From assembly GCF_015461835.1 (NCBI RefSeq), contig NZ_JACOPX010000011.1, forward strand, positions 62,001-126,000: a stretch of 64,000 nt of DNA. The letters run 5' to 3'. This document shows, piece by piece, positions 49,922-64,000 of this stretch (its first letter is position 1; every line of letters begins with the position of its first letter). This stretch comes from Pseudomonas neuropathica. Lineage in GTDB: Bacteria; Pseudomonadota; Gammaproteobacteria; Pseudomonadales; Pseudomonadaceae. The position numbers were made by a program, and so were the translations under genes. The notes below the pieces were generated by a model, which saw only the letters and a list, made by a program, of their open reading frames with translations, was not told the DNA's origin and did not search any database.

Positions 49922-49939
49922 AGGCTTGCACACAACCCT

Positions 49940-50029
49940 GTGGGAGCGAGCTTGCTCGCGAAAGCGGTGGATCAGTCGACATCGATGTTGAATGTCAGTC
50001 CGCCTTCGCGAGCAAGCTCGCTCCCACAG
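49940..50029. repeat. Type A REP inverted pair between dgcA and dgcB
   Basis: TGTGGGAGCGAGCTTGCTCG and its complement with about 40 bases between, inside an evident operon. Confidence 0.9.
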
Positions 50030-50085
50030 TGACCGAGTAAGGCAACTCGACCTGCAAGACCCTGCGGTCTTTGGGAGCTTCACCT

Positions 50086-52035
50086 ATGTTGAACACCCTT
50101 CTTCCAATCCTGTTGTTCGCCGCCCTGGGCCTTGGTGTCCTCGGCGCGTTGCGGCGGGTAGCGATGTGGCGTCGGGGCCGGGCCTCGAAGGTCGATCTGA
50201 TCGGCGGCCTGTTCGCCATGCCCAAGCGCTACATGGTCGATTTGCACCATGTCGTGGCGCGGGACAAATACATCGCCAACACCCACGTGGCCACGGCCGG
50301 CGGTGCGGTGGCGTCGATTGTGCTGGCGCTGCTGGTGCACGGTTTCGGCCTGCATAACCGCATACTCGGTTACGCCTTGCTGCTGATGACGGCAGTGATG
50401 TTCGTCGGCGCGATCTTCGTTTATCTGCGTCGGCGCAACCCGCCCGCGCGGCTGTCGAAAGGCCCGTGGATGCGCCTGCCGAAAAGCCTGCTGGCGTTCT
50501 CGGCGTCGTTCTTTCTGCTGACCTTGCCAGTGGCCGGAATTCTTCCGGAGAACTTTGGCGGCTGGATACTCGCGGTCATCCTCGGGATCGGCGTGTTGTG
50601 GGGCGTGTCGGAACTGTTCTTCGGCATGACCTGGGGCGGGCCGATGAAACACGCCTTTGCCGGTGCCTTGCACCTGGCCTGGCACCGTCGCGCCGAACGT
50701 TTTGGCGGCGGCCGTTCCACGGGTTTGAAGCCGTTGGATCTCAATGATCCGTCAGCGCCGTTGGGTGTTGAGAAACCCAAGGATTTCACCTGGAACCAGT
50801 TGCTCGGTTTCGATGCCTGCGTGCAGTGCGGCAAATGCGAAGCGGCGTGCCCGGCTTTCGCCGCCGGCCAGCCACTGAACCCGAAAAAACTGATTCAGGA
50901 CATGGTCGTCGGCCTCGCTGGCGGCACCGATGCGAAGTTCGCCGGCAGTCCGTATCCCGGCAAACCAGTGGGCGAACACAGCGGTAATCCACATCAACCG
51001 ATCGTCAACGGTCTGGTCGACGCCGAAACCCTGTGGTCGTGCACAACCTGCCGTGCCTGCGTCGAGGAGTGCCCGATGATGATCGAGCACGTCGATGCCA
51101 TCGTCGACATGCGCCGTCACCTGACCCTGGAAAAAGGTGCGACGCCGAACAAGGGGGCCGAAGTCCTCGAGAACCTCATTGCCACCGACAACCCCGGCGG
51201 TTTTGCCCCGGGCGGACGGATGAACTGGGCAGCGGATCTGAACCTCAATCTGCTCAGTGAAAAGAAATCCACCGACGTGCTGTTCTGGGTCGGCGACGGT
51301 GCCTTCGACATGCGTAACCAGCGCACTTTGCGCGCGTTCGTCAAAGTGCTGAAAGCGGCGAAAATCGACTTCGCCGTGTTGGGCCTGGAAGAACGTGACA
51401 GCGGCGACGTGGCCCGTCGTCTGGGCGATGAAGCGACCTTCCAGTTGCTCGCCAAACGCAATATCCAGACCCTGGCCAAATACAGCTTCAACCGCATCGT
51501 CACCTGCGATCCACACAGTTTCCATGTGCTGAAAAACGAATATGGCGCCTTCGACGGCAACTACCTGGTGCAGCACCACAGTACCTACATGGCGGAAATC
51601 ATTCAGGCCGGTGCGCTGAACCTCGGCCAGCACAAAGGCAACAGCGTGACCTATCACGACCCGTGCTACCTGGGGCGTTACAACGGCGAGTACGAAGCGC
51701 CGCGCGAAGTGCTGCGTACCCTCGGCATCGAGATCAAAGAGATGCAACGTTCCGGTTTCCGCTCGCGCTGCTGCGGCGGCGGCGGCGGGGCGCCGATCAC
51801 CGACATTCCGGGTAAGCAACGGATTCCTGATATGCGCATGGAAGACATCCGCGAGACCGGCGCCGAACTGGTGGCCGTGGGTTGTCCACAGTGCACGGCG
51901 ATGCTCGAAGGCGTGGTCGAACCGCGTCCGCTGATCAAGGACATCGCCGAACTGGTCGCCGACGCGCTGCTCGAAGACGCTGCGCCAAGCAAGCCTGCCA
52001 CCCCGGCCAAACGTGAACCAGCGGAGGCCCACTGA
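50086..52035 (+). CDS. dgcB: Dimethylglycine demethylase subunit DgcB (membrane iron-sulfur protein)
   Basis: A 649-residue protein; the ATG at 50086 follows GGGAG. About five hydrophobic helices occupy residues 1-200 (one start LNTLLPILLFAALGLGVLGAL). Two ferredoxin motifs follow: CVQCGKCEAACP near 245 and CTTCRACVEECP near 322. The C-terminal half holds two CCG-type cysteine-rich segments (HDPCYLGRYNGEYEAPREVL and RCCGGGGGAPITDI, CPQCTAML) as in heterodisulfide-reductase-like electron carriers. It probably passes electrons between DgcA, the ETF and the quinone pool. Confidence 0.92.
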   Translation: MLNTLLPILLFAALGLGVLGALRRVAMWRRGRASKVDLIGGLFAMPKRYMVDLHHVVARDKYIANTHVATAGGAVASIVLALLVHGFGLHNRILGYALLLMTAVMFVGAIFVYLRRRNPPARLSKGPWMRLPKSLLAFSASFFLLTLPVAGILPENFGGWILAVILGIGVLWGVSELFFGMTWGGPMKHAFAGALHLAWHRRAERFGGGRSTGLKPLDLNDPSAPLGVEKPKDFTWNQLLGFDACVQCGKCEAACPAFAAGQPLNPKKLIQDMVVGLAGGTDAKFAGSPYPGKPVGEHSGNPHQPIVNGLVDAETLWSCTTCRACVEECPMMIEHVDAIVDMRRHLTLEKGATPNKGAEVLENLIATDNPGGFAPGGRMNWAADLNLNLLSEKKSTDVLFWVGDGAFDMRNQRTLRAFVKVLKAAKIDFAVLGLEERDSGDVARRLGDEATFQLLAKRNIQTLAKYSFNRIVTCDPHSFHVLKNEYGAFDGNYLVQHHSTYMAEIIQAGALNLGQHKGNSVTYHDPCYLGRYNGEYEAPREVLRTLGIEIKEMQRSGFRSRCCGGGGGAPITDIPGKQRIPDMRMEDIRETGAELVAVGCPQCTAMLEGVVEPRPLIKDIAELVADALLEDAAPSKPATPAKREPAEAH

Positions 52036-53255
52036 TGAGCGACATTATCCGCCGCGACCCGCGCGCCGAATGGATTGCGCGTAACCGTTTGCATCCGCTA
52101 CACGCGGCCATGCAACCGGCGCAACACAGTTGGATGGGCCCCAACGGCATCATCCGCAAGAACCTGCACGGTATTGGTTTTATCGGCCCCAACGGCATCA
52201 AGCGGATCGATCGCAGCGGCGCGCAACAGGGCGGGGCGGTCAAACGTTCGGCCACAGTTGAAGTGCAATTGCCACTGCATCAGGTGCCGGCCCCGGCGTT
52301 CTATATCAGTGTGGTGCCGGACATGGTCGGCGGCCGCCTGAGCAGCCACGATCGCGACTTGCTCGGCCTCGCTCATCAGCTCGCCGGCAATGACGGCGCG
52401 GTGCTGGCGGTGGTCTTTGGCGAGCACAAGGAAAACGCCTTCGCCACGGCAGGCGTCGATCGCTTGCTGGTGCTGGAGGGCGAAGCCTTTAGTGGTTATG
52501 CACCGGAGCAACGCGTGCAAGGCTTGCGCGCTGTGGATAACCAGTTCAACCCGCGTCACTGGCTGCTCCCAGACAGTCGCAGCGGTGGCGGCGAACTCGG
52601 CCGGCGTTTTGCCGCTGCACTGGGCGAGCGCCCGGCCACGCGGGTCTGGCAGGTCAAGGATCAGGAGTGCATCGGTCGTGCCGGTGCGGGTCTGCAAGAC
52701 CTCGCCCGTCCGCTCGCACGGTTGATTCTCGCCGCCGCCGAATGCGCGGAGCCGGTCAGCGAAACCCGTCATGAAGCCTTGTCGGTGGAGTTATCCACAA
52801 CAGTGGCGCGCAGCCTGTCGCGGATTGAAGATCTCGGCGCCGTGGCGGTCGACCCGGCAGCGATTCCGATGGCCGAAGCGGAGTTCATTTTCTCCGGCGG
52901 CAACGGCGTCAAGGACTGGGCACTGTTCCACGAAACGGCGGCGGCACTCGGCGCTACCGAAGGTGCGTCGCGGGTGGCGGTGGACGATGGCTTCATGGCC
53001 CGTGATCGCCAGGTCGGCGCGTCCGGCACCTGGGTCACCGCGCGGGTGTATGTTGCGGTGGGGATTTCCGGGGCGATCCAGCACCTGCAAGGCATTGGTG
53101 CCTGTGACAAGGTGGTGGCGATCAACCTCGATCCGGGTTGCGACATGATCAAGCGTGCAGACCTCTCTGTGATCGGCGAGAGCGCAGAGATTCTTCAGGC
53201 GTTGATCGAGGCGGTGGCGGCTTACCGCAACGAAGCCAAGCGCGATGCGGCTTAA
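52035..53255 (+). CDS. Electron transfer flavoprotein alpha subunit (dgc-linked)
   Basis: A 406-residue alpha subunit. The C-terminal FAD domain is clear: VDDGFMARDRQVGASGTWVTARVYVAVGISGAIQHLQGI near 330 and AINLDPGCDMIKRADLSVIGE near 380. The N-terminal about 100 residues are longer than in housekeeping EtfA. It overlaps dgcB by one base (TGATG), and the beta subunit follows after 9 bases, so the pair is dedicated to betaine methyl oxidation rather than fatty-acid oxidation. Confidence 0.9.
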   Translation: MSDIIRRDPRAEWIARNRLHPLHAAMQPAQHSWMGPNGIIRKNLHGIGFIGPNGIKRIDRSGAQQGGAVKRSATVEVQLPLHQVPAPAFYISVVPDMVGGRLSSHDRDLLGLAHQLAGNDGAVLAVVFGEHKENAFATAGVDRLLVLEGEAFSGYAPEQRVQGLRAVDNQFNPRHWLLPDSRSGGGELGRRFAAALGERPATRVWQVKDQECIGRAGAGLQDLARPLARLILAAAECAEPVSETRHEALSVELSTTVARSLSRIEDLGAVAVDPAAIPMAEAEFIFSGGNGVKDWALFHETAAALGATEGASRVAVDDGFMARDRQVGASGTWVTARVYVAVGISGAIQHLQGIGACDKVVAINLDPGCDMIKRADLSVIGESAEILQALIEAVAAYRNEAKRDAA

Positions 53256-53264
53256 GGAAACGCT

Positions 53265-54035
53265 ATGAACACGAAAGTAATCAGTCTGGTTTCAATCGGC
53301 GCTCACCCTACTTCCGGGCGGCCACGCCGCGCTGATCAGGACGCACGCGCCGTGGAACTGGGTTTGCAACTGGCTGGGGATAACTTGCAAGTGCTGCATG
53401 CCGGCGACGTTGCGGAGCCGGCCTTGCGCGCCTATCTGGGCATGGGGCTTGAGCAGATGCATGTGCTGGAGCAACCGGCTGGTGCCGATGCGCTGCCGGC
53501 GCTGACCGCGTATCTGCGTGATGCCGGTGCGCAGGTGGTGCTGACCGGCAGCCAGGCGGAAACCGGCGAAGGTTCGGGGATGTTGCCGTTCTTGCTGGCG
53601 GAAGGTCTGGGCTGGCCGCTGGTGGTGGGCCTGGCGCAGGTCGAGTCGATCAACGAAGGTTCGGCGCTGGTGCTGCAAGCGTTGCCGCGCGGGCAACGGC
53701 GCCGGTTGAAAGTGAAGCTGCCGTTTCTGGCGACTGTGGATAACGCTGCGCCGAAGCCTCGGCAGAGTGCTTATGGGCCGGCGCGACGTGGGGTTTTGCA
53801 GGCTGAAGACGTTCAGGTGGTGGACGATGAGTTGCTCGCGGTCGGCACTTTGCAAGCGGCCAAGCCACGGCCGAAACGCTTGAAGGTGATCAAGGCCAAG
53901 AGTGGGGCGGACCGGATGAAGGCCGCGACGGCCAAGGCCAGTGGGGGTGGTGGGCAGGTGCTCAAGGGGGTTACTGCGCAGGCTGGCGCCGAGGCGATTC
54001 TCAAGTTGCTGATCGAAGAGGGTGTTGTTCGCTGA
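53265..54035 (+). CDS. Electron transfer flavoprotein beta subunit (dgc-linked)
   Basis: A 256-residue EtfB homologue with AAGGAAA before the ATG. The AMP-binding Rossmann-like core is seen in ARAVELGLQLAGDNLQVLHAGDV, ALPALTAYLRDAGAQVVLTGSQAETGEGSGMLPFLLAEGLGWPLV. The C-terminal 50 residues are Lys/Ala-rich and low in complexity (KPRPKRLKVIKAKSG). It closes the operon; a type C repeat follows at once. Confidence 0.9.
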   Translation: MNTKVISLVSIGAHPTSGRPRRADQDARAVELGLQLAGDNLQVLHAGDVAEPALRAYLGMGLEQMHVLEQPAGADALPALTAYLRDAGAQVVLTGSQAETGEGSGMLPFLLAEGLGWPLVVGLAQVESINEGSALVLQALPRGQRRRLKVKLPFLATVDNAAPKPRQSAYGPARRGVLQAEDVQVVDDELLAVGTLQAAKPRPKRLKVIKAKSGADRMKAATAKASGGGGQVLKGVTAQAGAEAILKLLIEEGVVR

Positions 54036-54039
54036 AAAG

Positions 54040-54231
54040 CCCCTCACCCTAGCCCTCTCCCAGAGGGAGAGGGGACCGACCGAGTGGTATTGGCTAATTA
54101 CATCGACCTGCGATTGCGCGGTGACCTTGGCTTGGCCAAGCCTGAGATCACAATGTTCGTTCAGGTCGGTGGAGTTTGACCAGGCGATGCGGTCGGCTCC
54201 CTCTCCCTTTGGGAGAGGGCTGGGGTGAGGG
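54040..54231. repeat. Type C nested palindrome (copy 4)
   Basis: CCCTCACCCTAGCCCTCTCC left, GGGAGAGGGCTGGGGTGAGG right, inner arms ATCGACCTGC and TTCAGGTCGGTGG. About 190 bases, directly after the etfB-like stop. Confidence 0.88.
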
Positions 54232-54860
54232 TTAGTGTTTACCCACAATCCCTGTTGGCGGATCTGTGGATAACGTGTTCGCCCATCCCTGCGCCCCGCG
54301 CCAATCAAGCCCTACAGCCCTCCGATCAAAAAACAACCAGCCTAAGTCACGGATTTTCAGGGCTTTTTCGGCAGGATAACTCAGCAAGTTGCCCCCAATC
54401 TCTGTTGGCGCTTCTGTGGATAAGATGTTCGCTATCGTCTGAAAGCCATACAAAACGTGGCTTGCGAAGATGTGATCAAAAAACAGTCAATTCGTCTGTT
54501 TCCATGGAAAACTCCCGCGCAAACCTCGATTTCACACAGCCTCCAACGCTTTTCCACAGATACGGCAAAGTTACCCCCGAACTCTGTTGGCGCTTCTGTG
54601 GATAACATGTTTGCCATCCTCTACAGGCCATGCAGAACGTGGCTTACAAGAATGTGATCAAAAATCAACCAATGCGTCTCGCAAACCGTCCTTCTGGATA
54701 AGTCACGATTTTTCTTCACAAATCAGCAAGTTATTTTTTCACTCATCCACAGTTACCCCCATTTGCTGTGGGTGGCTATGTGGATAACTTGTTTGCCAAA
54801 CCTTGCAAGCCCCGTCCGGCATAGTCCAAACGGCAATTGATCACATTTCATACAGTTCTA
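54232..54860. repeat. Tandem repeats each carrying a DnaA box
   Basis: Four imperfect units, each with a (G)TTRCCCCC-like lead, CTGTTGGCG (degenerate in unit 4), TGTGGATAA and a TGTT(C/T)GCC-like tail. The 9-base TGTGGATAA (reverse of the DnaA box TTATCCACA) is perfect at 54265, 54415, 54597 and 54779, all in one orientation; the last two intervals are exactly 182 bases and the first 150. Near-matches are TTTTCCACA at 54550 and TCATCCACA at 54743; TGTGATCAAAAA recurs at 54470 and 54652. Short open frames here only translate the repeat. Reads as a DnaA-binding locus of the datA or titration kind. Confidence 0.7.
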
Positions 54861-54924
54861 AGACGTTGCCTTGACTTCGATTCCTGCGCTGTCTTCACTG
54901 CAATGGCACAAGGACAGCCGTCAC

Positions 54925-54933
54925 TTATCCACA
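54925..54933 (-). promoter_or_regulatory. Perfect DnaA box TTATCCACA, inverted relative to the tandem array
   Basis: The fifth perfect box lies 138 bases beyond the array and faces the other way. A vestige of the unit lead, GTTGCCCCCATCTGC, occurs near 55132. Confidence 0.6.
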
Positions 54934-54952
54934 TCAGGTTCTGGGAGAACGC

Positions 54953-55039
54953 ATGATGGATAGTCAGCCGCACCGCCCCCCGCCCTCGCCACGCAAGCGC
55001 ACGCTACGACGCGCCGCCAATCAGCACGCTCGTCTGTAG
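54953..55039 (+). CDS. Possible 28-residue Arg-rich leader peptide
   Basis: ATG ATG at 54953 follows GGGAGAAC with good spacing and opens a frame MMDSQPHRPPPSPRKRTL and on to ANQHARL, stopping at TAG 55037. It precedes the GMC oxidoreductase gene by 125 bases. Very short and unsupported by family knowledge; it could be a leader peptide or chance. Confidence 0.25.
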   Translation: MMDSQPHRPPPSPRKRTLRRAANQHARL

Positions 55040-55164
55040 CGCGCCCCACCTGCCAGACCGCTGTGCTGTCGCCGGACTTGATCCGGTGGCCAGGTGCCCG
55101 TTCGCCCATCGATTGCAGGCAACCGCAGAGTTGCCCCCATCTGCCTGATTAGAGGAACCACCTC

Positions 55165-58100
55165 ATGACACGGATCGCAACGCCCATCAGCGAGATCAAG
55201 GAACACTACGATGTGATTGTCATTGGTTCAGGCTACGGCGGCGGCATTGCTGCCTCGCGCCTGTCCCGTGCCGGCAAACGTGTGTGCCTGCTCGAACGCG
55301 GTCGGGAAATCCAGCCCGGCGAATACCCCAACACCATGATCGCCGCCACCGAGGAACTGCAGGTGCATGACCCGGATGGCCATATCGGCTCGCGCACCGG
55401 GCTGTTCGATTTACATGTGAATGCCCAGCAGAACGTCGTGGTCGGTTGCGGCCTCGGCGGCACGTCGCTGATCAATGCCAACGTGGCCCTCGAACCGGAG
55501 CCGGGCGTATTCGATGATCCGCGCTGGCCGCAAGCGGTGCGTGAACACCGCGATACGCTGCTCAAGGACGGTTATGCCCGCGCCCGGGAAATGCTCAAAC
55601 CCAATCCTTACCCGAACACAGCGCCGAACCTGCCCAAACTCGACGCCAACAAGAAATCCGCGGATTACCTCAAGCAAGGCGCGCATTTCTACAAGCCGCC
55701 GATCAACGTGACCTTCGACAAGCTGCCGAACAACCTCAACCATGTCGGCGTCGAGCAACTGCCGTGCAACCAGTGCGGCGACTGCGTGTCGGGCTGTAAC
55801 AACAAGGCCAAGAACACCACGCTGATGAACTATCTGCCGGACGCCTGGAATCACGGCGCGGAGATTTTCTGCCAGGCCGAAGTGCGGCACCTGGAGCGTG
55901 ATGGTGAAGGCTGGATCGTGCACTTCCAGTACCTCGACAGCGGACGGGAGATGTTCAACGCGCCGACGTTGTTCGTGAAGGCCGACATCGTCGTGGTCTC
56001 CGCCGGCACCCTCGGCTCCACGGAAATTCTTCTGCGCACGCGCGACAAAGGTGTGGTGATGTCCGCCCAGCTCGGCGAGAACATGAGCGGCAACGGCGAC
56101 ATCCTCGGCTTCGGCCACAACTGCGAGCAGACCATCAACGGCATCGGTTTCGGCGCGCACCCGGCCAAGGAACTGCACCCGGTCGGCCCGTGTATCACTT
56201 CGGTGATCGACATGCGCACTGAAGGCGACTGGCGCAGCCGCATGGTCATCGAGGAGGGCTCGATCCCCGGCGCGCTCGGCCGGCCGATGGTGCCGGCCAT
56301 GGCCGGGTTTGCCGAGATGATCGGCGTGGCCACGGATGACAGCTTCAGCGGCAAGGTGAAATACAAGGAGCGCGAAGCGGAAAGCTTTCTGCGCGGCCCG
56401 TATTACGGCGCACTGCACAACATGCAGACTTACCTGATCATGAGCCATGACAGCGGCCAGGGGCGGATGGTCCTCGACAGCAAGGATCAACTGCGCATCG
56501 ATTGGCCAGGCGTTGGCGAGCAGGAGAACTTCAAGCTCGGCAACGAACGTCTGCACCTGAGCACCAAGGCACTGGGTGGCGTGTGGGTGGAGAACCCGAT
56601 CTGGACCAAACTGCTCAAGCACAGCATCGTCTCGGTGCACCCGTTGGGCGGTTGCGTGATGGGTGAAGACGCGGCGCAAGGCGTGGTCAATCACAAGGGG
56701 CAGGTGTTCAGCGGCGCCAGTGGCAGCGATGTTTACGCCAACCTGTACGTGACCGATGGCGCGGTGATTCCGACCTCGCTGGCGGTCAATCCGCTGCTGA
56801 CCATTTCCGCTGTGAGTGAGCGCAACATGGGCCTGCTCGCCGCCGACCGTGGCTGGCAGATCGATTACACGCTGCCATCGGCACCACGCAAACCGGTGGC
56901 GCCACCGACTCTCGGCGTGCAGTTCACCGAAACCATGAAGGGCTATTTCTCTCGCGCCTTCACCGCGGCGCAAAGCACTGATCTGAAAGTCTACGAAGCG
57001 GCGGCCAAACGCGGTGAGGCGGACAATTCGCCGATCGACTTCACCCTGACCATCACCGCCAACGACCTCAACCGCATGATCAAGGAGCCCGAGCACGCGG
57101 CAACCATTGTCGGCACGGTGATTGCTCCGGCACTGTCGCCACAACCGCTGACCGCCAGCAATGGCGTGTTCAACCTGTTCGAACAATTCGAGCAACAGGT
57201 CGATACGCGCCACATGAAATACGACATGAAACTGACCGCCGAGGACGGCAACGACTATTTCTTCAGCGCCTTCAAAACTGTGCCGGAAGACAACGGCGTG
57301 CTGAACATCTGGCACGACACCAGCACGCTCTATGTGACGCTGTATCGCGGGCCGGACAAGACCGGTGAGGTGATCGGCTCCGGGGTGATGCACATTCATC
57401 CGACCGATTTCGCCAAGCAGATGACCACCATGAAAGTGCTCAATGCGCGCAACGAACGCGAGCGCATCGAAGGGCTGGCACGCTTCGGCAAGTTCTTCGC
57501 CGGGATCCTCTGGGAAAGTTACGGCGGGGTGTTTGCCGGGGATATTTACTTCAACCCGGATGCACCGCCACGCCTGAAACGGCCGCTGGATGCGCCGACG
57601 CCAGCGGTGCATTTCTTTCCCACCCAGGATGGCGTGGAACTGCGCCTGACCCGGTATCAGGCCGGGAGCAAAGGCCCGGTGATGCTGGTGCATGGTTTGG
57701 GCGTCGGCTCGAATATCTTTTCCACCGACACCATCCAGACCAACCTGCTGGAATATTTGTGCAAGCACGATTACGACGTGTGGCTGCTGGATTTCCGCGT
57801 GAGCATTTTGTTGCCGGCGAGCAAGAAGGAGTGGAACGGCGACCAGATCGCCCAATACGACTTCAAGGCGGCCATCGCGCAGATTCAGCAGCAAACCAAC
57901 GCCAAAGATGTGCAATGCGTGGTGCATTGCTACGGCGCAACAACCTTCTTCATGTCGTTGCTCGCCGGGTTGCAGGGTGTGCGCTCGGTGGTCTGCTCGC
58001 AGATTGCTGCGGACACCGTGGTCGCCACGGCGACTGGGTTGAAGGCCGGATTGCATTTGCCGGGGATGCTCGACGCCATCGGTATCAAGTCGATGACCGC

Positions 58101-58617
58101 TTACGCCGACAGCAAGGAAAACTGGTTCAACAAACTCTACGACAAGGCCCTCAATGGCTACGCGCGGATCGAGGCGCAGGGTTATTGCACCAACCCGGTG
58201 TGCCACCGCATCACCTTTATGTACGCCTCGCTGTATCGCCACGACACCCTCAACGAAACCCTGCACGACAACCTGCACGAGTTGTTCGGCGAGTCGAATA
58301 TCGAAACCTTCGAGCACCTGGCGCTGATCGTGCGCAAAGGGCACCTGGTGGATTTCAAAGGCAACGATGTGTACATGCCGCACTTTGATCGCCTGACCAT
58401 GCCGATCTGCTTCATCAGCGGCGCCGACAACCAGTGTTATTTGCCCGAAAGCACCCTCAAGACTTACCAGCGTTTGTGCGAAGTCAACGGGCCGGAGCGC
58501 TACAGCCGGCAGGTGGTGCCGGGCTACGGTCACATCGACTGCATGTTCGGCAAGAACGCGGTGGTCGATGTCTATCCGATCATCCTTGAACACCTGGAGA
58601 AAACTGCCCTCGGTTGA
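55165..58617 (+). CDS. GMC oxidoreductase fused to alpha/beta hydrolase (cholesterol-oxidase-like)
   Basis: A 1150-residue fusion preceded by AGAGGAACC. Residues 1-560 are a GMC flavoenzyme: FAD motif DVIVIGSGYGGGIAASRL at 15-32, GCGLGGTSLINANV near 92, and VHPLGGCVMGED near 492 with the catalytic His region. Inside it C201, C204, C207 and C211 form a CxxCxxCxxxC ferredoxin-like motif. Residues about 600-800 are an uncharacterised linker domain. From about 815 an alpha/beta hydrolase follows (MLVHGLGVGSNIF), with nucleophile elbow HCYGA (Cys922 in place of Ser) and a late His in GYGHIDCMFG. No signal peptide. Substrate unknown; a sterol-like or hydrophobic alcohol/ester is possible. Confidence 0.85.
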   Translation: MTRIATPISEIKEHYDVIVIGSGYGGGIAASRLSRAGKRVCLLERGREIQPGEYPNTMIAATEELQVHDPDGHIGSRTGLFDLHVNAQQNVVVGCGLGGTSLINANVALEPEPGVFDDPRWPQAVREHRDTLLKDGYARAREMLKPNPYPNTAPNLPKLDANKKSADYLKQGAHFYKPPINVTFDKLPNNLNHVGVEQLPCNQCGDCVSGCNNKAKNTTLMNYLPDAWNHGAEIFCQAEVRHLERDGEGWIVHFQYLDSGREMFNAPTLFVKADIVVVSAGTLGSTEILLRTRDKGVVMSAQLGENMSGNGDILGFGHNCEQTINGIGFGAHPAKELHPVGPCITSVIDMRTEGDWRSRMVIEEGSIPGALGRPMVPAMAGFAEMIGVATDDSFSGKVKYKEREAESFLRGPYYGALHNMQTYLIMSHDSGQGRMVLDSKDQLRIDWPGVGEQENFKLGNERLHLSTKALGGVWVENPIWTKLLKHSIVSVHPLGGCVMGEDAAQGVVNHKGQVFSGASGSDVYANLYVTDGAVIPTSLAVNPLLTISAVSERNMGLLAADRGWQIDYTLPSAPRKPVAPPTLGVQFTETMKGYFSRAFTAAQSTDLKVYEAAAKRGEADNSPIDFTLTITANDLNRMIKEPEHAATIVGTVIAPALSPQPLTASNGVFNLFEQFEQQVDTRHMKYDMKLTAEDGNDYFFSAFKTVPEDNGVLNIWHDTSTLYVTLYRGPDKTGEVIGSGVMHIHPTDFAKQMTTMKVLNARNERERIEGLARFGKFFAGILWESYGGVFAGDIYFNPDAPPRLKRPLDAPTPAVHFFPTQDGVELRLTRYQAGSKGPVMLVHGLGVGSNIFSTDTIQTNLLEYLCKHDYDVWLLDFRVSILLPASKKEWNGDQIAQYDFKAAIAQIQQQTNAKDVQCVVHCYGATTFFMSLLAGLQGVRSVVCSQIAADTVVATATGLKAGLHLPGMLDAIGIKSMTAYADSKENWFNKLYDKALNGYARIEAQGYCTNPVCHRITFMYASLYRHDTLNETLHDNLHELFGESNIETFEHLALIVRKGHLVDFKGNDVYMPHFDRLTMPICFISGADNQCYLPESTLKTYQRLCEVNGPERYSRQVVPGYGHIDCMFGKNAVVDVYPIILEHLEKTALG

Positions 58618-58637
58618 CTATTGACCGAGTCGACTGC

Positions 58638-58702
58638 TTCGCGAGCAAGCTCGCTCCCACAGGGGCACGCATTCCAATGTGGGAGCGAGCTTGCTCGCGA
58701 AA
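58638..58702. repeat. Type A REP inverted pair between GMC and cytochrome genes
   Basis: TTCGCGAGCAAGCTCGCTCC and complement around a 17-base loop. The open frame of the next gene extends into it but should not start there. Confidence 0.9.
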
Positions 58703-58753
58703 GCGGTAGGTCAGGCGCTACACCTCTTGGGTCTGCACAAGGAAATGGATGAC

Positions 58754-60622
58754 ATGGACAGCTACATCCGCTGGTTTCAACGCTTCATCTGGATAGGCAT
58801 TGCGATGAACATGGTGTTCGCCATCCCCGCGCTGTTCGCGCCGGGCTTGCTGACATCGGTGGTCGGGCTGCCGCCACAACTCTCCGATCCATGGCTGGAA
58901 AACGCCGGGATGCTGCTGGTTGGCATCAGCGTGTTTTACATGCCGTCGGGTTTCAACGCGCCGCGTTACGTGGTGCATTCCTGGCTCTGTGTGCTGACGC
59001 GGTTGATCGCCGTGGTGTTCTGGATCTACCTGATCAACACCAGCTCTCAAGGCTCGGTATTCGTGCCAATGCTGATGGGCGATCTGAGCTTCTTTCTGAT
59101 CCTCGGCGTTCTGCTCTACCTCGGTACAACGCCGGAGAATCGCCCTTGGGCATTGCTTTGCGATGGCTGGCGCGAGTGGCGCGCGGCATGGCAGCGGCAA
59201 TGGCAGAGTCACGCCTTCAAGGTTGGCACGCTGATTGTCGTCGCGGTGCTCGGTTTCATCGGTTACGAGACCTGGTATCAGATGCTGCGCGTGGTGCCGG
59301 AGCAGGAATACGCCTCCGACGAAGATCACTACAAGTACGCCGCCATTGGCCTCGGCATCGAAGCACGGATCCCGTATTACCTGTTCGCCGTGCTGCCGCA
59401 GATGTGCCCGGAGAAAATGCCCAAACCCGGTGGCTGGGAAGTCTTTGGCTTCCTCTTCGAAAACGGCAAGGACCTGCCGATCGGCATGGCCAAGCGGCAG
59501 ATCGGTTACCCGACGGTAGAGCCGAACTGCGCGCTGTGCCACACCGGCTCCTACCGGGCCAATGCCAGCGACGTCGCCGTCAATGTGCCTAGCGCACCGG
59601 CCAACACCCTGCAACTGCAAGCCTTCCAGTGGTTCGCTTACGATTGCGCCAGTGATCCGAAATTCACCACCGACGCGGTGATGGCAGCGATCAACAGCAA
59701 GTTCCAGCTGGGCTTCTTCGAGAAACTCTACAACCGCTACCTGATCATGCCGATGGCCAAAAGCGCATTGCTCAAGCAGAAGCAGGCCTACGCCTGGCAG
59801 AAGCTGCGCCCGCAACAAGGCCCGGGCCGCACCGACACCTTCAACCCGACGAAAATGGTGGTGTTCGGCTTCCCGGATGACTCGACGATCGGCACCGTCG
59901 ACCTGCCGCAAGTGTGGAACCAGAAACCACGCGAATCGATGTACCTGCACTGGGACGGCAATAACAACAAGATCCACGAACGCAACTACGCCGCCGCGAT
60001 GGCCGTGGGCGCGACGCCGGAATCGGTGTTGCCGCCGAGCTTCAACCGCGTGACCAACTGGCTGCTCGGGCACAAGGCGCCGGCGTGGCCGTGGGCGCTG
60101 GATCAGGCCAAGGTCGCCCAGGGCAAACCGATCTGGGAGGCCAACTGCGCGGCTTGTCATGACTTCGGGCGCGCCGATACCGGGCAGGTCACGACCAACA
60201 TCGATCAGCTCGGCACTGATCCGCACCGGCTCGACTCGTTCACCACGGGGCTGGTCGCCGCGTTCCACACCTTCAAGAAACCGCCGTTCGATTTCGGCGC
60301 GTATCGCAAGACCCAGAGCTACAGCAACACGCCCACCGACGGCGTCTGGTTGCGCGCGCCGTACCTGCACAACGGCTCGGTGCCGACCCTGTGGGACTTA
60401 CTGCAACCGCCGGAAAAACGTCCGCAGGTGTTCATCACCGGCTCGGATATTTACGACCCGGTCAACGTCGGTTTCGTCACCAGCGGCGCCCAGGCCAAAG
60501 CCTCGGCGGACTTCAAATACGACACGCGCCTGGAGGGCAATCACAACAGCGGTCACCTGTATGGCACGACTCTGTCGGACGACGACAAGCGTGCATTGAT
60601 CGAATTCATGAAAACCCTGTGA
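58754..60622 (+). CDS. Membrane-anchored diheme cytochrome c
   Basis: A 622-residue protein from the ATG at 58754 (AAGGA 11 bases upstream; ATG 58745 is the alternative). Residues 1-130 contain about four membrane helices and a fifth near 155-175 (VGTLIVVAVLGFIGYETW). The rest should be periplasmic, with two heme c motifs, CALCH at 259 and CAACH at 465, and the cytochrome-peroxidase-like ending LRAPYLHNGSVPTLWDLL...LIEFMKTL. It lies 137 bases after the GMC fusion and 25 before the phosphoesterase, so it is the obvious electron acceptor candidate for that flavoenzyme, though the latter lacks an export signal. Confidence 0.85.
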   Translation: MDSYIRWFQRFIWIGIAMNMVFAIPALFAPGLLTSVVGLPPQLSDPWLENAGMLLVGISVFYMPSGFNAPRYVVHSWLCVLTRLIAVVFWIYLINTSSQGSVFVPMLMGDLSFFLILGVLLYLGTTPENRPWALLCDGWREWRAAWQRQWQSHAFKVGTLIVVAVLGFIGYETWYQMLRVVPEQEYASDEDHYKYAAIGLGIEARIPYYLFAVLPQMCPEKMPKPGGWEVFGFLFENGKDLPIGMAKRQIGYPTVEPNCALCHTGSYRANASDVAVNVPSAPANTLQLQAFQWFAYDCASDPKFTTDAVMAAINSKFQLGFFEKLYNRYLIMPMAKSALLKQKQAYAWQKLRPQQGPGRTDTFNPTKMVVFGFPDDSTIGTVDLPQVWNQKPRESMYLHWDGNNNKIHERNYAAAMAVGATPESVLPPSFNRVTNWLLGHKAPAWPWALDQAKVAQGKPIWEANCAACHDFGRADTGQVTTNIDQLGTDPHRLDSFTTGLVAAFHTFKKPPFDFGAYRKTQSYSNTPTDGVWLRAPYLHNGSVPTLWDLLQPPEKRPQVFITGSDIYDPVNVGFVTSGAQAKASADFKYDTRLEGNHNSGHLYGTTLSDDDKRALIEFMKTL

Positions 60623-60647
60623 ACCCTTACGGAGAGAGGATTACACC

Positions 60648-61892
60648 ATGTCACTGGTCAGTCATTGGGAACACGAATACGACAAGGTCAAAGTGCGCAT
60701 TCACGGCTTGTTCACGCGCATGGAAATGGCCTGGATGAAACTCATCAGCGAGCTGGAGCCGCAGGAGTTTCAGGCGATCATCAAGCTGCTGCAACGCGGA
60801 CATGATCAGGCGCAGTACGTGCTGAAGAACGGCGAGTTGCCGGACGACGAACCGAGCGTACCCTGGGAGCTGTCCCACGGTCTGTCGATCCTGCGCATCG
60901 GCAATGCCACGCCGTTGCCGCAATCCACCGATCAACTGGCGACCCGGGTGCTCAAGGACGGCAGCCTGCTCGGCTGTCGCAAGTGGGAACTGCTGGATCT
61001 GCTGTGGAGCGAGGCGCTGCTGAAGTGGATCGAAAACCTGCGCCATCACGCGACCTTCGGTACTGACCCGGCGGTGGTGCAGATGGATCGCGAGGTGACC
61101 CTGGCGATTGCCGGCGACTGGGGCACCGGGCCGTTCGACAGTCATGCGCCGGCGGTGTCGGTGGCCAATCAGATGCAACTGGCCCAGGCCGATTTCACCA
61201 TTCACTTGGGCGATGTGTATTACGCCGGCAGTCACTCCCAGGAAGATGTCGACATGGCTGGCTGGCCGATGGGTACGCATGGCTCGTTCACCCTCAATTC
61301 CAACCACGAGATGTACAGCGGCGCCCACGGTTATTTCAAGGAGCTGGCCAAGCGTTTTCCGGGGCAGAAGGGCACCAGTTACTTCGCCTTGATCAACGAT
61401 GACTGGCTGGTGGTAGGGCTGGATTCTGCGTACGCGTCTGATGCGATGAATTTGTACATGGACGGCACTCTGAACGAGCCGCAGATCGAGTGGTTGAAAG
61501 GCCTGCCAAAACGCAAAAAGATCATGGTGCTCAGCCATCATCAGGGCTTCGATATTTCCGGGCACAACAAGACCGCGCTGTATCAACCGGTGTGCGATGC
61601 GCTGGGGCGTGAACCGGATTACTGGTATTGGGGGCATCTGCACAACGGCATCGTGTATGCGCAGCAGGGCGGTTTGCATGCGCGTTGTGCCGGGCACGGG
61701 GCGATTCCCTATGGCAATGCCAGCGAGCTGGACGGGCATTCGCGGGTGTTGTGGTCGGAGACGCAGGATGCCAAGGACCCGGCATATCCGCTGCGGGTGT
61801 TGAACGGGTACGCGAAAATCAGGTTGGTGGGGGAGGAGATATTTGAGGAGTTTATTGGGGAGGATGGATCGGTGAGGTGGTCATCGAAGTGA
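60648..61892 (+). CDS. Calcineurin-like metallophosphoesterase
   Basis: A 414-residue protein with GGAGAGAGG before the ATG. After a 140-residue N-terminal region without known motif, the metallophosphoesterase core shows AIAGDWGTG near 150, HLGDVYYAG near 183, NSNHEMYSG near 218 (GNHE equivalent), SHHQGFD near 292 and GHLHNG near 326, so both metal sites look complete. No signal peptide. Third gene of the GMC-cytochrome trio; substrate unknown. Confidence 0.87.
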   Translation: MSLVSHWEHEYDKVKVRIHGLFTRMEMAWMKLISELEPQEFQAIIKLLQRGHDQAQYVLKNGELPDDEPSVPWELSHGLSILRIGNATPLPQSTDQLATRVLKDGSLLGCRKWELLDLLWSEALLKWIENLRHHATFGTDPAVVQMDREVTLAIAGDWGTGPFDSHAPAVSVANQMQLAQADFTIHLGDVYYAGSHSQEDVDMAGWPMGTHGSFTLNSNHEMYSGAHGYFKELAKRFPGQKGTSYFALINDDWLVVGLDSAYASDAMNLYMDGTLNEPQIEWLKGLPKRKKIMVLSHHQGFDISGHNKTALYQPVCDALGREPDYWYWGHLHNGIVYAQQGGLHARCAGHGAIPYGNASELDGHSRVLWSETQDAKDPAYPLRVLNGYAKIRLVGEEIFEEFIGEDGSVRWSSK

Positions 61893-61913
61893 TGCAGCGA
61901 TTGTAATGACGCC

Positions 61914-61979
61914 ATCGCGAGCAGGCTCACTCCTACAATTGGAATGCGTTCCCCTGTAGGAGCGAGCCTGCTCGCGAAG
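61914..61979. repeat. Type A REP inverted pair between convergent genes
   Basis: ATCGCGAGCAGGCTCACTCC and GGAGCGAGCCTGCTCGCGA around a short loop, between the phosphoesterase and gbcA 3' ends. Confidence 0.88.
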
Positions 61980-61994
61980 CCTTTGCCTTTGTTT

Positions 61995-63290
61995 TTAGCC
62001 CTGAACCGGGACGCCTTTGAGGTATGGCGCAGGCTCGGCGCCGAGGTTGCTCAACAGGCGCTCGCTGTACCAATCAACGAAGTTGACCACACCAAACTCA
62101 TAAGTCTTGGAGTAAGGCCCGGGCTGGTAGGCGGTGGAGTTGATCCCGCGCTGGTTCTCTTCCGCCAGACGACGGTCCTGATCGTTGGTCGCATCCCACA
62201 CCTGACGCATACGCTCGACGTCGTAATCCACGCCTTCAACGGCGTCCTTGTGCACGATCCACTTGGTGGTGACCATGGTTTCCTGCGCGCTGATCGGCCA
62301 CACGGTGAAGACGATGATGTGGTCGCCCATGCAGTGGTTCCACGAGTGCGGCAGGTGCAGGATGCGCATCGAACCCAGATCCGGGTTCTTGATCCGGCCC
62401 ATCAGTTTCGCGCAGCCCTGTTTGCCGTCGAGGGTCATCGACACGGTGCCCTTGAGCAGTGGCATGCGCACGATACGGTTACGCAGGCCGAAACTGGCGT
62501 GGGCGTAAGGGATCTTCTCGGCTTCCCAGGCGGCAGCGGAGGCGGCGACGTGATCCTTGAACGCCTGATCGGCGCGCGGGTCGGTGACGTCGTCCCATTC
62601 CAGCAGGGTTTTCAGCAATTCCGGGTGCGACGCGTTGCAGTGGTAGCACTCGCGGTTGTTTTCCAGCACCAGTTTCCAGTTGGCCTTTTCCATCAAGGTG
62701 GTGGTGATCGCCACCTTGGTGTTCTCCATGTCGTACGGTTCCATGTAGTGGTTCAGCGTCGACAGGAAGTCATCAATGGCCGGTGGAGTCTCGGCCAGGC
62801 TGATGAAGATATAGCCGCCGGCAGTCTTCACGTTCACCGGTTTGAGGCCGTATTGCTTCATGTCGAAGTCGGCGCCCATTTCGGTACCGGCGAACAGCAG
62901 GCGACCGTCCAGCTCATAGGTCCACTGGTGGTAGTGGCAGACCAGTTTGGCAACCTTGCCTTTTTCGCTGGTGCACAGGCGCGAACCTCGGTGGCGGCAG
63001 ACGTTATGGAAGGCATGCACCACGCCTTCGGCGCCACGGATGACGATGATCGGGTTCTTGCCGACCTGCAGGGTCAGGTAGTTGCCCTTGGCCGGGATCT
63101 CGCAGGTCATGCCGGCGATCAACCACTCTTTCTGGAAGATCTCCTGCATGTCGATATCGAACAACCGTTCATCGCTGTAGAACGGTTGCGGCAGCGAAAA
63201 GGTGCGCTCGCGCTCTTGCAGCATTTGTGCGGTGGCCTTGCGTGCGGGTTCCAGCGGATCGCCCAGGCTGATTTTTGCGGTGACGTCCAT
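61995..63290 (-). CDS. gbcA: Glycine betaine monooxygenase, Rieske oxygenase subunit
   Basis: A 431-residue Rieske non-heme iron oxygenase that removes one methyl from glycine betaine as formaldehyde, giving dimethylglycine. The ATG at 63290 (MDVTAKISLGDPLEPARK) follows TGAGGAT. Rieske ligands: CRHRGSRLC near 100 and CHYHQW near 118. The mononuclear iron site is in ENNRECYHCNASHPELL near 210-226. Divergent from its reductase gbcB with a 297-base promoter region between. Confidence 0.95.
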   Translation of the reverse strand: MDVTAKISLGDPLEPARKATAQMLQERERTFSLPQPFYSDERLFDIDMQEIFQKEWLIAGMTCEIPAKGNYLTLQVGKNPIIVIRGAEGVVHAFHNVCRHRGSRLCTSEKGKVAKLVCHYHQWTYELDGRLLFAGTEMGADFDMKQYGLKPVNVKTAGGYIFISLAETPPAIDDFLSTLNHYMEPYDMENTKVAITTTLMEKANWKLVLENNRECYHCNASHPELLKTLLEWDDVTDPRADQAFKDHVAASAAAWEAEKIPYAHASFGLRNRIVRMPLLKGTVSMTLDGKQGCAKLMGRIKNPDLGSMRILHLPHSWNHCMGDHIIVFTVWPISAQETMVTTKWIVHKDAVEGVDYDVERMRQVWDATNDQDRRLAEENQRGINSTAYQPGPYSKTYEFGVVNFVDWYSERLLSNLGAEPAPYLKGVPVQG

Positions 63291-63587
63291 CGATGTGATC
63301 CTCATGGCCATCTGCGTGGCCGGCGAAAAGTGGCTGATCAGGTGTGCTGCTAACGGTTGCTACGCAAGGTGTAAAGAATCTGTATTGGTGTTGGGGCGAG
63401 TGTGGGGCCGGCGCTGCCGCGAACCTTATCCATGGGCGACATGGTGCAATCTGTTCCCGACGCGCAACCCCCGGTGGTTGGGGGCTGGTCGCGATAAGTA
63501 TGCCGATGTCGCGGATAGGTAAACGGACGGTTCACGCTATACGCAGAATCGCCGACATGAGGCCGACAGTCGGCCGTGGAGAACAGC
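63291..63587. promoter_or_regulatory. gbcA-gbcB divergent promoter region with GbdR-like repeats
   Basis: GGTCGCGATAAGT at 63487 and TGTCGCGGATAGG at 63507 form a 20-21-base direct repeat, about 70 bases before gbcB. The first copy matches the GGTCGC...AGT motif found before cbcX/sdaB and caiX/cdhR. GGCCGACAGTCGGCC at 63561-63575 is a hairpin just above the gbcB ribosome site. No gene otherwise. Confidence 0.6.
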
Positions 63588-64000
63588 ATGTCCAACAGCT
63601 TCCTGAATCCGGTCACCACCCAGACCTGGGCCAATGGCCGACACATCGTCCGTTGCGTCAAAGTCATCCAGGAAACCTGGGACGTGCGCACCTTCTGCTT
63701 TATGGCCGACCAGCCGATCCTGTTCTTCTTCAAGCCCGGGCAGTTCGTGACCCTGGAGCTGGAAATCGAAGGCCAGCCGATCATGCGCTCGTACACGATC
63801 TCCAGTTCGCCGTCGGTGCCGTACAGCTTTTCGGTGACGATCAAACGGGTGCCGGGTGGCAAGGTGTCCAACTGGTTGCACGACACGCTTCATGAGGGGC
63901 AAGAGCTGGCGGTGCACGGGCCGGTCGGGCTGTTCAATGCCATCGATTTCCCGAGCCCGAAAGTGCTGTACCTGAGCGGCGGCGTCGGCATCACGCCGTG
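63588..64000 (+). CDS. gbcB: Glycine betaine monooxygenase reductase subunit, N-terminal part (runs off window)
   Basis: The first 137 residues of a ferredoxin-NAD(P)H reductase-type electron donor for GbcA. The ATG at 63588 follows GTGGAGAA. FKPGQFVTLELE near 50 and MRSYTISSSP near 68 are the flavin-binding RxYS-type motifs; VLYLSGGVGITP at the window edge starts the nucleotide domain. The NAD and 2Fe-2S parts lie outside. Confidence 0.93.
   Translation, partial: MSNSFLNPVTTQTWANGRHIVRCVKVIQETWDVRTFCFMADQPILFFFKPGQFVTLELEIEGQPIMRSYTISSSPSVPYSFSVTIKRVPGGKVSNWLHDTLHEGQELAVHGPVGLFNAIDFPSPKVLYLSGGVGITP

Follow-up and report, generated by a model that had tools for sequence, protein, structure and literature searches.

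Enzymes with which the genes described here can be compared are known from separate systems. One is the flavin adenine dinucleotide (FAD) glucose dehydrogenase of Burkholderia cepacia (BcGDH), which is reported to have a surface 3Fe-4S cluster held by Cys212, Cys218 and Cys222 (PMC6719666). Others are PA2077 and PA2078 of Pseudomonas aeruginosa, diheme proteins distinct from the one treated below, which are reported to oxygenate fatty acids (PMC4496055). Here these systems are compared with a locus in a 64,000-nucleotide stretch of DNA from the soil bacterium Pseudomonas neuropathica (contig NZ_JACOPX010000011.1, positions 62,001 to 126,000; the whole stretch is called the window). Three open reading frames (ORFs) on the forward strand fill positions 55165-61892 of the window, with etfB upstream and gbcA downstream, and encode a fusion of a GMC oxidoreductase with an alpha/beta hydrolase, a diheme c-type cytochrome and a metallophosphoesterase (together, the trio). 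The placement, common direction and domain content given in a preliminary description of the window were confirmed by the ORFs and by Pfam and NCBIfam. We tentatively favour, at a little below an even chance, the reading that the trio is a lipid-alcohol processing module and not a branch of betaine catabolism; its deeper unit is the GMC-hydrolase fusion together with a phosphoesterase. In a search of the open-access literature for the module, its parts, its neighbourhood and the betaine regulon, none of the titles listed was about the module. Each part belongs to a known superfamily; it is the combination, and two active-site features, for which no description was found there.

A conserved trio and its core pair

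In a survey of 298 genomes of the genus (own genome counted), 58 encode the fusion, called at E<=1e-100. An orthologous cytochrome (at least 81% identity) is present in 57 of these 58 and the phosphatase in all 58, with 59 phosphatase-bearing genomes in all. The three genes are consecutive, in the same order and on one strand in 33 of the 35 Pseudomonas loci read in detail, a set that includes some genomes fetched twice; the gaps between matches are 53-244 bases for the first and 20-51 for the second. The exceptions are L132, in which the contig ends inside the fusion, and L142, which has no cytochrome. The association of the three genes is thus beyond chance, and they pass the check set in the preliminary description, namely conservation together in other genomes. 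Among the named loci fetched, the fusion protein is closest to those of Pseudomonas sp. TH43 (98% identity) and DTU12.3 (97%).

Weaker cytochrome matches were found in five of the 240 fusion-less genomes, bringing the cytochrome positives to 63. Four of these match at 49-53% over the last ~100 residues only; the other, G1009, carries a tandem pair of NF040606 diheme proteins (L188:7201-10156) that match at 40-43% over ~450 residues (37-39% by tblastn). Three cases count against the trio as a fixed unit. Beside L142, these are G994 (L187), with fusion and phosphatase at the etfB-gbcA place, no cytochrome there and a partial cytochrome match elsewhere only, and G837 (L186), with the phosphatase alone at that place and the sole phosphatase carrier among the fusion-less genomes. 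Because the cytochrome is missing from the first two and the phosphatase is kept alone in the third, phosphatase and fusion form the steadier pair.

Outside the genus 65 loci were collected, 54 of them from a family-alignment scan of named genomes and 11 from other genomes. The scan was restricted to the best 80 of 528 confirmed loci, and we take the hosts of these 80, several of them metagenome bins, to be Pseudomonadota, Acidobacteriota, Myxococcota, Actinomycetota, Chloroflexota, Bacteroidota, Gemmatimonadota and a Caldithrix metagenome-assembled genome. All three genes were found at E<=1e-10 in 9 of the 65 loci, these being from Chromobacterium (L123, L124, L131), Pokkaliibacter (L161) and Acidobacteria (L096, L106, L118, L129, L156); the L156 cytochrome shows 28% identity only and its first membrane segments are missing. 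Some of these non-Pseudomonas loci also share neighbours. A gene of one cluster lies beside the phosphatase or the fusion in the acidobacterial L106, L129 and L156, its L129 member being a subtilase-family (S8) protein, and in L074, L136 and L139 a protein of another cluster adjoins the fusion, with Pfam DUF6765 found in three adjacent genes.

The recurrence of the core pair was followed in 46 non-Pseudomonas loci, thinned from 100 by removal of the 35 Pseudomonas loci, 14 of the 16 Burkholderia-group loci, and L078, L079, L093, L123 and L124; thinning of the remaining loci was not strictly by genus. In 24 of the 46 a phosphoesterase lies within two intervening genes of the fusion; 22 of these phosphoesterases share the strand of the fusion and 15 directly adjoin it. 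The hidden Markov models (HMMs) behind this count were built from genes beside the fusion, with L074 and L128 added from Pfam, and the gene calls came from a simple script that can err (L123 was miscalled). An independent comparison by Pfam is cleaner: at E<=0.02 Metallophos matches 9 and PhoD 6 of 91 adjacent genes, and neither family matched more than one of 71 control genes lying four genes away, the output giving counts and not specifying the genes matched or the overlap between the nine and the six. One of the control genes (L140:18927-20681) belongs to the c40 HMM set. Loci without the cytochrome often have, next to the fusion, a phosphoesterase from a different subfamily; these include several Metallophos clusters and PhoD-like proteins, and the Sorangium locus L128 has a PF04185 phosphoesterase in that place.

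Several of these counts tell against the core pair. By these tests 22 of the 46 have no phosphoesterase within two genes of the fusion, and the phosphoesterase HMMs gave no match at any of the 16 Burkholderia-group loci. Ten adjacent genes from eight phosphoesterase-less loci (L090, L104, L110, L133, L137, L139, L141, L145) included no metallophosphoesterase and one PP2C-type phosphatase. Eight neighbour proteins without a Pfam call at 0.001, and two more, were rescanned at looser thresholds, and for several of them the matches to Metallophos or PhoD were no more than weak (E 7e-5 to 0.012); in 8 of the 24 positive loci (L072, L076, L091, L095, L099, L101, L127, L136) the call depends on Pfam matches that fall short of the curated cut-off.

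The same activities also occur in one polypeptide. A single chain of ~2000 residues unites a GMC part, a hydrolase and a PhoD-like phosphatase in three loci, L170 as judged by Pfam, and L171 and L172 as judged by blastp and HMM; in L173 a GMC-hydrolase is accompanied by a phosphatase part spread over two ORFs. In L179 separate neighbouring genes encode, in order, a hydrolase, an acetoacetate-decarboxylase-like (ADC-like) protein, a patatin joined to a relative of the middle domain of the fusion (MID), a GMC protein and a Metallophos protein. By blastp the order in L178 is as in L179 (hydrolase, MID protein, GMC, phosphoesterase), the second gene and the N-terminal half of the third having been left out of the scan. 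The phosphatase partner switches family while the combination recurs across phyla, which suggests selection on a reaction sequence. A hybrid histidine kinase with a receiver domain is encoded upstream of the ~2000-residue fusions in L170, L171 and L172, and L143 and further loci of the Burkholderia group likewise have one directly upstream of, or close to, their fusion gene.

The preliminary description had noted the position of the trio inside the betaine catabolic block and suggested the breakdown of a lipid-like substrate, perhaps one that yields choline; such a choline-bearing lipid would feed the flanking pathway. This would agree with the location of the fusion between etfB and gbcA in all 29 Pseudomonas loci that have both genes in the fetched stretch, and with a fold match between the phosphatase and the glycerophosphodiesterase GpdQ (Z 17.8). 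Against it, dgcB, etfA, etfB, gbcA and gbcB (E<=1e-10, fetched stretches) were found in none of the 65 non-Pseudomonas loci, so that the betaine neighbourhood is seen in Pseudomonas only. Furthermore, a region of ~1.1 kb containing DnaA boxes lies between etfB and the trio, export signals were not seen, and in L132 no etfB occurs in the 8.9 kb that precede the fusion. L132 is one of the six Pseudomonas loci outside the 29; the other five are cut by contig ends. The choline link was rejected on the count of 0/65, and we regard it as very improbable. The DNA upstream of the fusion in L132 (Pseudomonas fuscovaginae SE-1) is unlike that of strain IRRI 6609 (L117), apparently through a rearrangement or insertion.

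Domains and invariant residues of the fusion protein

The 1150-residue fusion carries GMC_oxred_N (46.5 bits, cut-off 23), GMC_oxred_C (49.5 bits, cut-off 24.6) and Abhydrolase_1 in one chain. Its relatives were compared in a 91-row alignment containing 36 Pseudomonas rows, some of them from the same genome fetched twice, and 55 others; all nine counted motif residues are present in 55/55 of the latter. Membership of the GMC superfamily is clear, with His492 and Asn542 each in all 91 rows. The best solved relatives of this domain are cholesterol oxidases (profile E 9e-42), and the HPLGGC and NP motifs of the class I enzymes (1b4v, 1coy) align with their His and Asn. The class I enzymes differ in having no fused domains and, in the aligned stretch, no counterpart of the invariant motif CxxCGxCxxGC, whose four cysteines (Cys201, Cys204, Cys207 and Cys211) are present in 91/91 fusions, including 55/55 outside Pseudomonas. 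The motif was also seen in 21 of 22 further GMC relatives; the four other GMC proteins detected in this genome do not have it.

Cys201, Cys207 and Cys211, with steps of 6 and 4, reproduce the C-x5-C-x3-C spacing of Cys212, Cys218 and Cys222 in BcGDH (PMC6719666). The BcGDH catalytic subunit (6a2u) shares with the fusion its GMC enzyme class, this spacing and the company of a membrane-bound cytochrome c. The two differ in that the fusion has an additional Cys204 between the first two ligands and no cysteine at the place of BcGDH Cys213, and has no visible export signal; the trio also lacks a triheme subunit and a subunit with a twin-arginine translocation (Tat) signal to act as hitchhiker partner. 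No such Tat-signal subunit was found within the trio, the phosphatase having no hydrophobic N-terminal segment, and the rest of the genome was not searched. The cysteines may hold an iron-sulphur (Fe-S) cluster that draws electrons from FAD, and a dehydrogenase would then be likelier than an oxidase. A profile of the cysteine stretch speaks against this assignment: its best matches in the PDB were cholesterol oxidases, in which the cysteines are missing; Fe-S proteins, of the ferredoxin type or other, came up no better than at E 0.17 to 0.99, and the Burkholderia enzyme did not come up. Equivalence in position between the motif and the BcGDH cluster site is therefore an inference.

The hydrolase domain has as its best solved relatives gastric lipase (1hlg) and lysosomal acid lipase/cholesteryl ester hydrolase (6v7n), both at a profile E of ~1e-13. 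Polyhydroxyalkanoate (PHA) synthase came next as a weak match (E 0.0013), with Cys present and Asn in the acid place. The region of the catalytic His is like that of the acid lipases. The fusion differs from them in having Cys922, within a nucleophile elbow HCxG (Q for H in one row), and Asn1089 where 1hlg has a Ser and an Asp, which we take to be its catalytic residues, so that the Ser and Asp of the acid lipase triad are absent. Cys922 and Asn1089 are each found in 91/91 rows and His1123 in 90/91, the remaining row having a gap; a reading of the alpha/beta hydrolase named in the preliminary description as an ordinary serine hydrolase is not supported. The Cys, Asn and His are also found in the aligned stand-alone and triple-fusion relatives, save for the stand-alone L177:8302-9474, which has HGVG for HCxG, hence Gly at the nucleophile place, and is possibly non-catalytic. 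A Cys nucleophile is a trait of PHA synthase. Since Cys-Asn-His is unlike the triad of ordinary lipases, acyl transfer is as open as hydrolysis.

That the nearest solved relatives of the two catalytic domains are cholesterol oxidase and the gastric lipase/lysosomal acid lipase-cholesteryl ester hydrolase family, here in one chain, might point to the use of environmental sterols or sterol esters, with the acid-lipase-like domain as sterol ester hydrolase and the GMC domain as sterol dehydrogenase. Such a role appears improbable to us: the score for the cholesterol oxidase equivalog NF058674 is 153.7 bits where the cut-off is 850, other residues stand in for the catalytic Ser and Asp, and no export signal was seen although the external substrate would be water-insoluble. 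The hosts, moreover, include Nitrosomonas, Methylophaga and Hyphomicrobium, none of which is known as a sterol user.

Between the catalytic domains lies a middle domain that AlphaFold2 predicts as a barrel, with a mean predicted local distance difference test (pLDDT) score of 89.3. Foldseek gave no match to it at E<=0.001 and its profile found no PDB chain at E<=1; the VIA rows, which reach Z 8.7, are unrelated barrels (earthworm haemoglobin, Cap15, designed barrels, OmpA), so that no function can be read from them. The fusion of a middle-domain relative to patatin (L179:9802-11340) suggests, by analogy, that the domain may hold or target the substrate.

The phosphatase, the cytochrome and their compartments

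The third protein of the trio contains Metallophos (Pfam). It matches human PAP (purple acid phosphatase) 1war by profile (E 2.3e-14) and a purple acid phosphatase by Foldseek (5.4e-11), and its model aligns by VIA with 7ov2 (Z 19.5, 245 residues, root-mean-square deviation 3.8); the confidence of the model is middling (overall pLDDT 69.6). The metal-ligand motifs of the PAPs (GDxG, GDxxY, NH(D/E), H and GHxH) are all present when the protein is aligned to 1war, and Gly156-Asp157-Gly159, Gly188-Asp189-Tyr192, Asn219-His220, His297/298 and Gly329-His330-His332 are invariant in 19 rows. The catalytic domain is therefore, as judged by these alignments and the model, PAP-like. The protein resembles 1war and 7ov2 in keeping these motifs and differs from them in having no hydrophobic N-terminal stretch and an extra N-terminus of ~140 residues, largely helical in the model.

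The cytochrome scores 202.5 bits against the 150-bit cut-off of NF040606 (Di-heme CytoC_perox subfamily), and has the heme motifs CALCH and CAACH and a RoxA-like cytochrome domain (PF21419). The PF21419 segment and membership of NF040606, a RoxA-related subfamily, are its points of resemblance to RoxA-type proteins. The rubber dioxygenases RoxA, RoxB and RoxC themselves are set apart from it by scores far under their cut-offs (54.7, 48.6 and 55.5 bits against 1000, 900 and 900) and by the four hydrophobic N-terminal segments that precede its heme domain. The hemes of c-type cytochromes are attached outside the cytosol, in the periplasm, and the heme domain should face that compartment.

None of the 91 fusions has a hydrophobic stretch before the FAD motif, and none of 21 phosphoesterase partners has one at the N-terminus. 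This was a plain hydropathy test on script-called starts, and export with a partner protein, by which a fusion could reach the periplasm as a hitchhiker, would be compatible with it, a point that counts against a cytosolic module. Because no export signal was seen in the core proteins and the hemes should be periplasmic, direct electron transfer from fusion to cytochrome, which the preliminary description had envisaged, is unlikely, and it was rejected as the likeliest path.

These features also bear on the view that the module is biosynthetic and makes an oxidised or acylated lipid signal or a membrane modifier, with the hydrolase serving as an acyltransferase and the cytochrome as an oxygenase like RoxA or the oleate diol synthases. 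A Cys nucleophile as in PHA synthase, the place of the cytochrome in the RoxA-related NF040606 subfamily, the fatty acid oxygenation ascribed to PA2077 and PA2078, and the hybrid sensor kinases that adjoin or lie near the fusion in several genomes are all in keeping with this. Against it, the patatin, PhoD and PF04185 neighbours point to hydrolysis, and on balance we consider biosynthesis rather unlikely. The enzyme classes and the linkage do not by themselves choose between breakdown and synthesis, nor do they fix the order of the steps or the substrate.

Gene layout and a candidate reaction sequence

Coordinates are collected in the table below.

Table. Features of the trio and its flanks (positions in the window)
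Feature	Position	Strand	Basis or remark
etfB	53265-54035		left neighbour of trio
GMC oxidoreductase - beta-barrel - alpha/beta hydrolase fusion, 1150 aa	55165..58617	+	ORF; Pfam; 91-row family alignment
GMC flavoenzyme domain, residues 1-570, His492 and Asn542 invariant	55165..56874	+	PF00732/PF05199; cholesterol oxidase profile match
Cys201-x2-Cys204-x2-Cys207-x3-Cys211, predicted Fe-S cluster site	55765..55797	+	91/91 rows
Middle domain, residues 578-812, predicted eight-stranded beta barrel	56896..57600	+	AlphaFold2 model
Acid-lipase-like alpha/beta hydrolase domain, Cys922/Asn1089/His1123	57580..58614	+	profile matches to 1hlg, 6v7n
REP-like inverted repeat pair, gap between fusion and cytochrome genes	58637..58703	none	read in sequence
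Membrane-anchored diheme c-type cytochrome, RoxA/CCP-like (NF040606), 622 aa	58754..60622	+	NF040606 score; two CxxCH; hydrophobic segments
Purple-acid-phosphatase-like metallophosphoesterase, 414 aa	60648..61892	+	profile match 1war; structure match 7ov2
gbcA	61995-63311	-	right neighbour of trio

The mechanically called start of the cytochrome, GTG 58679, falls inside the inverted repeat, which we take to be of the REP type. The ATG at 58754 is most likely the true start, because AAGGA precedes it and the relatives begin MDxYIRW. The 25 bases that separate the cytochrome and phosphatase genes would be compatible with co-transcription. A scan of 53900-63900 for sigma-70 promoters found no site, terminators occurred there at the shuffled rate, and no RNA family scored above its gathering threshold in 49000-64000.

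The window also holds ten exact DnaA boxes (TTATCCACA), against 0.21 expected. A cluster lies at 54265-54933, with further boxes at 52532, 52791, 53735, 44088 and 45478. Five boxes are located between etfB and the trio at spacings of 150, 182, 182 and 146 bases, four of them within a degenerate 64-nt direct repeat. Four to five boxes are present at the same place in 19 Pseudomonas loci examined, including the fusion-less L186, and genomes of the genus without the fusion also have similarly spaced boxes. The cluster may be a DnaA-titration site resembling datA.

For the trio itself, the lipid-alcohol module that we tentatively prefer would work as follows. The PAP-like protein would take phosphate off a bulky hydrophobic substrate in the cytosol, where the cysteine-type acid-lipase-like domain would cleave or transfer an acyl group of the same substrate. 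The fused GMC domain, with its FAD, would then oxidise the freed hydroxyl, and the electrons would exit by way of an Fe-S cluster on the four cysteines, with the quinone pool or a soluble carrier as their probable destination. The beta barrel that separates the two catalytic domains may keep the substrate in place or pass it on. The diheme cytochrome would be a separate and dispensable periplasmic component, for which a related substrate or peroxide is likelier than the role of direct electron acceptor. It weighs against a lipid module that none of its neighbours points to one particular lipid. Stepwise action on a hydrophobic ester, phosphate or alcohol, in line with the preliminary description, fits the cholesterol oxidase, acid lipase and PAP relatives and the patatin, PhoD and PF04185 neighbours; what falls away is the part that would have yielded choline.

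A bolder proposal, which we hold to be possible but doubtful, is that the module represents an undescribed and widespread cytosolic lipid pathway of some eight bacterial phyla, with a new type of enzyme at its centre. In this enzyme a GMC flavoenzyme with a four-cysteine Fe-S cluster would be joined, by way of a substrate-carrying barrel, to a domain of acid-lipase fold whose catalysis proceeds by a Cys-Asn-His acyl-thioester, and its phosphatase partner would have been replaced repeatedly by other phosphoesterase families. A tempting error of guilt by association is corrected by the finding that the betaine neighbourhood is seen in one genus only. The Fe-S-like cysteines in the GMC domain and the Cys-Asn-His in the lipase fold are specific features, and they would add new enzymology to two large families.

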